DNA of 34,776 nt from Mollicutes bacterium (GTDB taxonomy: Bacteria > Bacillota_I > Bacilli_A > Izemoplasmatales > Izemoplasmataceae), in assembly GCA_003557505.1 (NCBI GenBank), contig PWOH01000113.1, forward strand, positions 1-34,776. The letters run 5' to 3'. The position numbers were made by a program, and so were the translations under genes. Below, in pieces: positions 26,889 to 30,547 of the stretch. Position 1 is the first letter of the stretch, and every line of letters starts with the position of its first letter. Under the pieces are notes generated by a model, which saw nothing but the letters and a program-made list of their open reading frames with translations, did no database searches and was not told the DNA's origin.

Positions 26889-27383
26889 TCATAACTTTTT
26901 AATTGTTGGGCCAGGGCTAAGTAACACTATTGCTTCTGCTTGAATAGATTCATGGTTCCCAATGCTATCGACACCTTCACCGGTAGTTGCTTTAATAGAG
27001 ACTTGATCAATAGAAATCTCCAAAATCGCGGCTATGTTTTTGCGCATCGCATCAATATGTGGCGCGAGTTTCGGACTTTCCAGAAATACCATGGTATCGA
27101 GGTTATTGATTGCATAACCTTTCTCTTTAATCATGGCATAGACTTGCTTTAATATCTTTTGCGAATCATAGTCTTTGTACGCATCCGCTGTATCCGGAAA
27201 ATGCTTCCCCAGATCTCCAAGTGCCAAAGCCCCTAGTAATGCTTCACTAATCGCATGCAATAAGACATCTCCATCACTGTGGGCCACACTTTCGTAGGGG
27301 GATTTGATTGCTAAACCGCCTAAAATTAGCCGTTTCCCAGTTGTTAGACGATGAATGTCACGACTAAAGCCTATCTTTAGCAT
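26889..27383 (-). CDS. ispF: 2-C-methyl-D-erythritol 2,4-cyclodiphosphate synthase
   Basis: GFSRDIHRL, AHSDGDVLLHAISEALLGALALGDLGKHFPD, KATTGEGVDSIG. ATG at 27383. Confidence 0.97.
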   Translation of the reverse strand: MLKIGFSRDIHRLTTGKRLILGGLAIKSPYESVAHSDGDVLLHAISEALLGALALGDLGKHFPDTADAYKDYDSQKILKQVYAMIKEKGYAINNLDTMVFLESPKLAPHIDAMRKNIAAILEISIDQVSIKATTGEGVDSIGNHESIQAEAIVLLSPGPTIKKL

Positions 27384-28032
27384 CAAGAATCAACTCCAAT
27401 AATTCCAGATCATTTTGGGTCGTAAATTTAATATTTCTTTGATCCCCTTCAACAACCTTGGCGGGAATAGCTAACGCTTGTTGCACCAAACTCGCATCAC
27501 ACGTAATTTCACTGTGGTTAAGGCTTGCGGCATGGGCTTTAGTAATTACCGAGGCATGAAAGCCTTGCGGGGTTTGAATTCTCACTAATGATTCTCTGGA
27601 TATATCATTTTCAATAAACTGATTATGCACACGTTTGACGGTATCATAAACAGGCAGTGCCAATGTCACAGACTGCGTGGATTTCAAGGCATCCAGTATC
27701 GCAGTGATATTATCTTCGGCGATAAAGGGGCGCGCCCCATCATGAATAAGCACAAACTCTGAATTTACTGCTTCTAGACCGTTTTTTACACTCTGTGTCC
27801 GTGTTTCTCCGCCTTCTATGACAATGACCTTATTTTGTGGGAAACAATGCCTTACAGCGGATATATCATCTTTAGCCGCAACGATGATCACTTGTGAGCA
27901 CCGAGTATCCTGTAAAAATACTTCACTGGCATGTTCGATGATGCTTTTACCAGCAATTTGATGTAAGACTTTATTGTGGCCAAGTTTACTGCGACGGCCT
28001 TTACCGCCTGCTACAATAATGACATCATACAT
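27364..28032 (-). CDS. ispD: 2-C-methyl-D-erythritol 4-phosphate cytidylyltransferase
   Basis: VAGGKGRRSKLGHNKVL, GGETRTQSVKNGLEA, LIHDGARPFI, IQTPQGFHA. ATG at 28032 gives an 8-nt overlap (ATGTATGA) with the upstream gene. Confidence 0.95.
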   Translation of the reverse strand: MYDVIIVAGGKGRRSKLGHNKVLHQIAGKSIIEHASEVFLQDTRCSQVIIVAAKDDISAVRHCFPQNKVIVIEGGETRTQSVKNGLEAVNSEFVLIHDGARPFIAEDNITAILDALKSTQSVTLALPVYDTVKRVHNQFIENDISRESLVRIQTPQGFHASVITKAHAASLNHSEITCDASLVQQALAIPAKVVEGDQRNIKFTTQNDLELLELILDAKDRL

Positions 28033-28570
28033 CGCTATCATGACGGCTTTCATACACTTGATTGTCGGTCACTAATATATCAACGGGGATATCGTGGGCG
28101 CGATTTGGCAGTGCTTCAACACGGAAGTTCTCAAAGACTACGCCTACTTTCAATCCCTGATAATCTTTCAAAAAGGCATCATAATACCCTTTCCCATAGC
28201 CTAATCGGTAAAGCCCGTCATCATAAACCAATCCCGGCACAATTACCGCATCAAGGACTTCTTTGACAACTGGCTTGGCATCCGCAGGTTCCATGACACC
28301 AAGTTGTCCTGGTTTAAAATGCCCTGAATCTTTATAAAAGACAATTTCTTTATTTTCGATTTTTGGATAATAAAGCGTATAGGTATCTTCTAAACTGCGC
28401 ACATCCACTTCATTGCCAATAGGGTTAAATATCCCCAGTTGCTTGATGTTATATGCTTTAAGGACATCGCGCAGAGAAGCTACCAACATATGATTTAACA
28501 TTTTTTTGGTGGCAGGGTCCATATTATTGCGGGTTTCTAAAAATATTTTGCGGAGCGTTTGTTTATCCAT
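28025..28570 (-). CDS. 5-formyltetrahydrofolate cyclo-ligase
   Basis: VIVPGLVYDDGLYRLGYGKGYYDAFL signature. Confidence 0.95.
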   Translation of the reverse strand: MDKQTLRKIFLETRNNMDPATKKMLNHMLVASLRDVLKAYNIKQLGIFNPIGNEVDVRSLEDTYTLYYPKIENKEIVFYKDSGHFKPGQLGVMEPADAKPVVKEVLDAVIVPGLVYDDGLYRLGYGKGYYDAFLKDYQGLKVGVVFENFRVEALPNRAHDIPVDILVTDNQVYESRHDSDV

Positions 28571-28574
28571 AGTA

Positions 28575-29726
28575 TCACCTGATTATGAAGTAGTTGTCTG
28601 TCGTATTATCTTCTAATGCGATATTCAGTGCTTTATCGGCACGTTCAGCAATTTCATCAACGGGTTCATCAAACATTTTGACATGCAGGATACCAAAACA
28701 CGGATACACACTTTCGGTCACATTGCCAAACGTCATGGTGTGATTGATTAAATCGCCACCTTCTTCAAGTGCTCGTTTTAACATTTCCACTTTGCGATGA
28801 TCTGTAATCACCATGGCGAAACGAATTCCGGATAACCTGAAGACAGAATGAATATCTTTTAAAAAGTGGTAAGCTAGTTTTTTAATATATTCGCCCATCA
28901 GTAAGTCTCCGATATCACGCCCATACTGTGAATTGACTTGTGGGATATTGGTCATCTCAAAGGTTACAATCGAATAAGGACTGCGTTTGCGGTTTAAGGA
29001 CTGAATATGTTCGTAATATGCACGATCAATGGTTAGATTGTTTAGCACTTCAATATTGGTTTCAGGGTAGCGTTTAACATCAACCCCTTTTACCACGTTA
29101 ATATACATTTTACGGTTGTGTTGTTGGAGTCTGAACCCTTTTTCTTTAAACCAATGGTAATCGCCTTCTTTTTTAATGCGATAATGGACGGTATATGTTG
29201 GTTTTTTTCTTGAGACTTTCTGAATCGCTTCCAGATAAGATTGTTTATCATCCGGATGCATTTTCATTAACAACGCTTCAAACGAAAACTCGTTATCATC
29301 AAAAGGAATCAGTTTAAGATAATTTTGCGTGCCAAACATCGTATCGTCATCACTTCTAAAAGCAATCCCATCATCAACGAGTTCCAGCATATGAATGAAT
29401 CGTTCTCTTAAGAGTTCACTACGTTCCGCCAAATTATCATAGTCTTTTTTTAACGTTTTGAGTTTATCTTTCGTTTTATCTTTTTTTGAGAGATTTTTTC
29501 CATCAAAAATAAGTAAACTAAATGCAAAGCCTACGTAGATATAGCTTTGGAGGTAAAGAAAAGTAATGTCCGCAAGTTCCAAGATAACGAATAAAATATA
29601 CGCCGTAAGTGCAGGAACGAACAACAAAATATCAAGATCGCCTTTTTTATTACGGATTTTTTTAACGATGATAAAAAATAACCATGTAGCCATAATGATG
29701 ACTTCTAGTGTGATATATTCCCTCAT
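28575..29726 (-). CDS. Membrane protein with TM helices, PAS domain and degenerate GGDEF domain
   Basis: N-terminal hydrophobic helices; PAS_3-like stretch MHPDDKQSYLEAIQKVSRKKPTYTVHYRIKKEGDYHWFKEKGFRL; GGDEF-like fold (RAYYEHIQSLNRKRSPYSIVTFEMTN...YGRDIGDLLMGEYIKKLAYHF...FRLSGIRFAMVI) with SGIRF in place of GGDEF. Confidence 0.75.
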   Translation of the reverse strand: MREYITLEVIIMATWLFFIIVKKIRNKKGDLDILLFVPALTAYILFVILELADITFLYLQSYIYVGFAFSLLIFDGKNLSKKDKTKDKLKTLKKDYDNLAERSELLRERFIHMLELVDDGIAFRSDDDTMFGTQNYLKLIPFDDNEFSFEALLMKMHPDDKQSYLEAIQKVSRKKPTYTVHYRIKKEGDYHWFKEKGFRLQQHNRKMYINVVKGVDVKRYPETNIEVLNNLTIDRAYYEHIQSLNRKRSPYSIVTFEMTNIPQVNSQYGRDIGDLLMGEYIKKLAYHFLKDIHSVFRLSGIRFAMVITDHRKVEMLKRALEEGGDLINHTMTFGNVTESVYPCFGILHVKMFDEPVDEIAERADKALNIALEDNTTDNYFIIR

Positions 29727-29752
29727 ACGGCCCTCCTATCCCAAAGGTACAA

Positions 29753-30493
29753 TTAATTTTGCAGGTATTTCTCTAAGTAAAGCACTAATGATTCATGCGA
29801 GAGGTCTTGATCAAGGTATCCGTCAATCGTTACACTGACTTGCCCGGTCTCTTCACTAACAACAACGGTCAAGGAATCGGTAATCTCACTGATTCCAATC
29901 GCCGCACGGTGTCTTGACCCCAAGTATTTTGGAATCTTCACAGATTCACTTGGCGGGAAGTAAGCACCAGCACATTTAATGATATTTTCTTTTATAATAA
30001 TCGCCCCATCATGAAGCGGCGTCGCCGGCATAAAAATACTACTCATCAATTCACTGCTTAGTGGCGCTTCGATTTGAAACGCATTTTCAATATAATCTTT
30101 CAAAGAGTCACTGCGTTCAAAGGTAATAATGGCACCGATTTTATGACGAGATAAATAATCAATCGCATGTAAGAGTTCTTGTTTGGTATCTTCTTCAATG
30201 GCATTGGAAATCAGAAGTCCGCTTTTGACCCCGACTACTTCCATTATAACTTTAAACTCACTTTGGATAATAATAATTATTAAAATAATGATTGGAACCA
30301 CACGAATCATGACCATCAGCCAATGATCGATGCTTTCAATATTCTGAAATATTTCATAAATAAATATTGTGGAAAATATAAGAAGCACCACTTTTATGAG
30401 GCGATAAGTCCCTAAATTTATCTTCGTACGTATCGTCATGGTAAATATAGCTAAAAGAAAGATATTTAGCGAAAAAACATCATATGTTTCCAT
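29753..30493 (-). CDS. cdaA: Diadenylate cyclase (c-di-AMP synthase) CdaA
   Basis: N-terminal TM helices, then DAC motifs PLHDGAIIIKENII and GSRHRAAIGISEITDSLTVVVSEETGQVSV. ATG 30493 with RBS GGAGG. Confidence 0.96.
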   Translation of the reverse strand: METYDVFSLNIFLLAIFTMTIRTKINLGTYRLIKVVLLIFSTIFIYEIFQNIESIDHWLMVMIRVVPIIILIIIIIQSEFKVIMEVVGVKSGLLISNAIEEDTKQELLHAIDYLSRHKIGAIITFERSDSLKDYIENAFQIEAPLSSELMSSIFMPATPLHDGAIIIKENIIKCAGAYFPPSESVKIPKYLGSRHRAAIGISEITDSLTVVVSEETGQVSVTIDGYLDQDLSHESLVLYLEKYLQN

Positions 30494-30547
30494 TGACTTC
30501 ACCTCCTAGAAAACGAGAAAAATTGCTTTTAAATTGTATCAAGACTG

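Follow-up and report, generated by a model that had tools for sequence, protein, structure and literature searches.

A degenerate PAS-GGDEF membrane sensor encoded downstream of cdaA in Izemoplasmatales and related bacteria

We describe a degenerate PAS-GGDEF membrane sensor that is encoded in an alternative cdaA operon of a Mollicutes bacterium. The protein, named Q in this analysis, has 383 residues and belongs to a large family. Its conservation over the full length in relatives down to approximately 25% identity rules out a chance open reading frame. Our search of open-licence papers found no description of Q or of its cdaA arrangement, and nothing on c-di-AMP in Izemoplasma. A PHROGs search with Q gave weak matches only, to families of unknown function. 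The window, the whole 34,776-nucleotide stretch of DNA analyzed here, contains the following features in and around the Q gene:

29753-30493, minus strand: cdaA, a diadenylate cyclase with an N-terminal TM region, 246 residues from its ATG (DAC, TIGR00159, AGGAGG)
28575-29726, minus strand: Q, a TM-PAS-degenerate GGDEF membrane protein of 383 residues (open reading frame, Pfam, family search)
29508-29708, minus strand: three predicted TM helices of Q, residues 7-26, 30-48 and 56-73 (AlphaFold, hydrophobic sequence)
29379-29477, minus strand: signaling helix of Q, residues 84-116, with a conserved SELLRxRF (AlphaFold, conservation)
29082-29369, minus strand: PAS domain of Q, residues 120-215 (PAS_3 match, model, PAS neighbors in the PDB)
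28581-29057, minus strand: degenerate GGDEF domain of Q, residues 224-382 (GGDEF match, model, structural neighbors DgcZ, DosC and PA0861)
28818-28832, minus strand: SGIRF replacing GG(D/E)EF, residues 299-303 (sequence; degenerate in all aligned relatives)
28025-28570, minus strand: presumed 5-formyltetrahydrofolate cyclo-ligase-like gene, separated from Q by 4 nt (open reading frame, conserved neighbor; named from its sequence)
27364-28053, minus strand: ispD, overlapping the cyclo-ligase-like gene by 29 nt (IspD, 204.5 bits)
26889-27386, minus strand: presumed ispF, overlapping ispD by 23 nt (open reading frame, conserved neighbor; named from its sequence)

The gene upstream of Q, taken for a c-di-AMP synthase gene in a preliminary description made from the DNA letters, is indeed one: its product scores 134.9 bits against DAC and 181.1 bits against TIGR00159, just below that model's cut-off of 188.8. 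The position of AGGAGG places the cdaA start at the ATG at 30493 and not at the GTG at 30502, and this is the sole diadenylate cyclase gene found in the genome. In the CdaA of this group, which scores just below the curated cut-off, the end of the TM region has no FQPEIR-like motif, which was seen in most CdaR-linked CdaAs. Q begins with ATG, with GGAGGG upstream, and the 26-nt gap to cdaA that was first described is correct. Because cdaA, Q, the cyclo-ligase-like gene, ispD and ispF lie on one strand, the first three spaced 26 and 4 nt apart and the following ones overlapping by 29 and 23 nt, the arrangement suggests a single transcription unit from cdaA through ispF. A promoter and terminator scan gave no excess over shuffled sequences. 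The c-di-AMP riboswitch RF00379 was detected in 5 of 28 Q genomes and was not found in the window's own genome, for which it is therefore uninformative. The preliminary description had pointed out that CdaR was missing beside cdaA and had proposed a search of the genome for cdaR, glmM and gdpP. By profile search, no YbbR/CdaR was found anywhere in the genome; a GlmM-like gene below the model cut-off lies on contig C110, unlinked to cdaA, and a complete gdpP is present.

The proposed architecture of TM segments, PAS and degenerate GGDEF, with the DHH/DHHA1 part missing, was borne out by domain searches and structure prediction. In Pfam, GGDEF (38.8 bits, residues 229-372) and PAS_3 (29.9 bits, residues 149-207) both match above cut-off, and neither DHH nor DHHA1 nor the YbbR domain matches Q. 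An AlphaFold model built on 44 relatives has a mean pLDDT of 86.5, with the fold well predicted, and a pTM of 0.45, with the relative placement of the domains uncertain. When the PDB was searched with Foldseek, Q matched the PAS-GGDEF proteins DosP and PA0861 and the diguanylate cyclases DosC and DgcZ; GdpP was absent among the 50 best matches. The GGDEF fold is thus present according to PF00990, the model and Foldseek, and it is degenerate: these checks revealed no canonical or unrelated cyclase domain. Q shares the succession of PAS and GGDEF with the PAS-GGDEF(-EAL) sensors PA0861 and DosP/DosC, its best structural neighbors, but differs from them in having no EAL domain, a lost catalytic site and linkage to cdaA.

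For the active site, we aligned the Q family with GGDEF domains from the window's own genome, using the residue numbers and roles of PleD (E370, D327, K442/R446, N335). The SGIRF signature was confirmed at residues 299-303, and a GG(D/E)EF motif with its metal-binding D/E is lacking in Q. The equivalent of catalytic E370 is I in every Q sequence of families f1 (40), f3 (24) and f2 (7) and L or I in most remaining members, so that almost all members have I or L. Also mostly lost across the family are the metal position equivalent to D327 and the phosphate positions equivalent to K442 and R446, and in the family as a whole the R and D of an RxxD I-site are not jointly held in both columns. The equivalent of guanine-contacting N335 is kept in all Q sequences of f1, f2, f3, f12, f16 and f22 and, f18 and f7 aside, in almost every member. 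Given that catalytic, metal and phosphate positions are lost, diguanylate cyclase activity of Q is very unlikely. Nucleotide binding is conceivable; judging from the residues present, binding of GTP is doubtful because those that hold the phosphates are mostly lost too. Q resembles degenerate GGDEF regulators that bind nucleotides in its dead active site and retained guanine-contacting Asn, and differs from them in this loss of phosphate-binding residues.

At a threshold of E<=1e-15, Q occurs in 123 of 395 genomes of the class. It is found throughout Izemoplasmatales (families f1, f2 and f3), further in f5, f12, f16 and f22, and in a weaker form in f18. Scanned members of f12 and f16 include long forms of approximately 506-539 residues with a second PAS match, and in the f7 genome G093 the Q slot (L202:5398-6582) holds a 395-residue protein with a PAS-like match and no GGDEF match. 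Conserved linkage to cdaA in relatives, chosen beforehand as a point on which the preliminary description should stand or fall, holds: with a single locus counted for each genome, 79 genomes of eight family-level groups (f1, f3, f5, f7, f12, f16, f18 and f22) have cdaA on the same strand upstream of the Q match, at 24-3491 nt. The remaining loci are at contig or locus edges, in f2, or in genus g52 of f18; in G115 (f18), cdaA and Q are unlinked. Downstream of Q, ispD is found in nearly all groups; three of six f12 genomes have cdaA and Q with no ispD nearby. Among sampled genomes without Q, cdaA and ispD were not seen juxtaposed except in G113. There the Q gene, flanked by mgsA and the folate gene (L214:3128-4640), is fragmented by frameshifts and represents either a pseudogene or an assembly error. 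Between cdaA and Q there may be mgsA (f5 and part of f18) or a CrtI/carotenoid-isomerase-like flavoprotein (part of f1, and f3). This flavoprotein, which is absent from the window's genus, is mostly approximately 780 residues long (L053:4454-6802, L081:2205-4547; 695 in L072); its C-terminus is hydrophobic, and it may include an SCP2-like part. When Q was compared with CdaA, IspD and control neighbors by mirror trees, CdaA did not stand out: the controls yutD and ispF scored as high, which makes the comparison uninformative.

Two groups have lost one of the usual neighbors. In f2, no DAC domain was found in any of seven genomes, yet all seven keep Q beside ispD with its conserved motifs. GdpP is kept in five of these seven genomes despite the lack of a DAC domain, with DHH motifs present in both copies checked (L219, L220). 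Conversely, IspD is missing from all four genomes of genus g5, and the order cdaA-flavoprotein-Q is kept in both that were read. Incompleteness of metagenome-assembled genomes may hide a gene in a single genome, but not plausibly in seven of seven or four of four. Q is therefore strictly dependent on neither neighbor, and its link to cdaA is real and deep but not exclusive.

The position of Q invites comparison with CdaR. Papers on the system describe the cdaA-cdaR-glmM operon as conserved in Firmicutes and call the mechanism of CdaR unclear. CdaR is reported to bind CdaA through membrane segments and to regulate it (PMC8573169, PMC10243994), and from this the analogy with Q draws its force. 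Like CdaR, Q resides in the membrane and its gene comes immediately after cdaA, with the slot held by one or the other in different groups. Unlike CdaR, it has no YbbR domain and no sequence relation to CdaR, and its sensor domains, which come after the TM region, presumably face the cytosol, in contrast to YbbR domains, which lie outside the cell. YbbR/CdaR was found in 120 of the 395 class genomes, and only one of these, G280, also has Q, by a weak match; approximately 37 such genomes would be expected if the two were independent. Sampled CdaR genomes have cdaA, then cdaR and usually then glmM. Since the cdaAs linked to CdaR fall into a single group of the CdaA tree, the backbone of which is weak, the mutual exclusion may reflect a single ancient divergence or a few events rather than many replacements.

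The reading that we tentatively favor is that Q, as a sensor without catalytic activity, would work through contact with another protein, most likely CdaA, in the slot of CdaR; the sensory regulator of CdaA suggested in the preliminary description thus stays plausible. Its three predicted TM helices feed a signaling helix, a PAS sensor domain and then a dead GGDEF fold that, as sequence and model show, has lost metal, phosphate and catalytic residues. Because such a protein should be unable to make c-di-GMP by the known mechanism, protein contact is its most likely mode of action. The PAS domain, perhaps with a nucleotide in the old GTP pocket, might change the conformation of Q, which in the membrane could modulate CdaA oligomerization and hence c-di-AMP output. 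CdaA is the most likely partner because the Q gene comes after cdaA in all eight family-level groups named above, in CdaR's slot; the association also persists across unrelated intervening genes (the CrtI-like flavoprotein and mgsA) and, in g5 and three f12 genomes, where ispD is missing or not nearby. The near-complete mutual exclusion of Q and CdaR points the same way. It is possible, although we hold this with somewhat less assurance, that CdaR gave way, throughout an entire branch of the class, to another type of CdaA regulator that is unrelated to it and would use a dead GGDEF domain to couple a signal sensed by PAS to the synthesis of c-di-AMP. A sensor in CdaR's slot, in lineages with no detected CdaR, offers an independent handle on the membrane control of CdaA, and Q may be an overlooked c-di-AMP regulator in many wall-less bacteria and their relatives. 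Its distribution provides concrete test cases, including f2, which has Q and lacks the cyclase.

CdaA as the partner meets its main obstacle in family f2. The unlinked genes of G115, the mirror-tree result, the possibly few events behind the Q/CdaR exclusion and the absence of a GGDEF match in the G093 protein also speak against it. Nearly as likely is that Q, still a dead-GGDEF membrane sensor, serves another membrane target or the isoprenoid or folate genes, with cdaA as a neighbor in a housekeeping cluster. Such a partner would fit the pairing of Q with ispD in genomes that have no DAC domain, and the presence of ispD after Q in almost every group; the flavoprotein between cdaA and Q in f1 and f3 adds to an isoprenoid theme, and the tight packing from Q to ispF, where genes overlap or almost touch, suggests a common transcript. 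It sits poorly with g5, where Q stays with cdaA in the genomes read despite the missing IspD, and with the sampled Q-less genomes other than G113, in which cdaA and ispD were not seen juxtaposed; nor is a biochemical tie between a dead GGDEF protein and IspD known. That Q is still an enzyme, either a diguanylate cyclase or an ATPase, is the least probable of the readings considered: the degenerate GGDEF domain of GdpP has weak ATPase activity (PMC10243994), but in Q the metal-binding, catalytic and phosphate-binding residues are mostly missing family-wide.

Two further readings involve GdpP (YybT), whose N-terminal half shares with Q its TM segments, PAS domain, degenerate GGDEF domain and c-di-AMP context. 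Q differs in lacking DHH/DHHA1, in having three predicted TM helices, in matching PAS_3 and ordinary GGDEF models and not PAS_GdpP/GGDEF_GdpP, and in coexisting with a true GdpP in the same genome. The preliminary description had suggested a GdpP-derived receptor, that is, GdpP without its DHH/DHHA1 part. This suggestion found no support, and we regard it as quite improbable: in a set of 17 Q proteins drawn from several lineages, all of which match PF00990 and PAS_3, there was no match to the GdpP-type models PF21370 (PAS) and PF24898 (GGDEF), on which the GdpP of the same genome scores 85.5 and 40.4 bits. The hhalign probability between Q and that GdpP is 3%, the N, G and GD/GN motif positions kept in Q are missing in GdpP, and the two sets of GGDEF domains form separate clades in the domain tree, each monophyletic at 100/100. 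An AU test did not reject the union of Q and GdpP in one clade (p-AU 0.29). A GdpP origin is thus unsupported rather than excluded, and GdpP and the Q family look like parallel cases of one architecture. Unlikely, if less so than descent from GdpP, is that Q acts as a partner or decoy subunit of GdpP and tunes c-di-AMP breakdown, not synthesis. The shared architecture and the GdpP retained in f2 would suit this role; on the other hand, GdpP is equally frequent in genomes without Q, gdpP never adjoins Q in the loci read, and the two profiles barely match.

The complete GdpP of the window's genome is fused to ribosomal protein L9. The in-frame fusion has 808 residues (L110:1283-3706, G000:C69), and a dnaB-like helicase gene comes after it. 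Across the order and in several class members there are GdpP open frames approximately 800-840 residues long, consistent with an L9 fusion. Elsewhere in the same genome (L111:373-2278, G000:C108), two tandem DHH-family genes of NrnA/Pde2-like size overlap by 35 nt.
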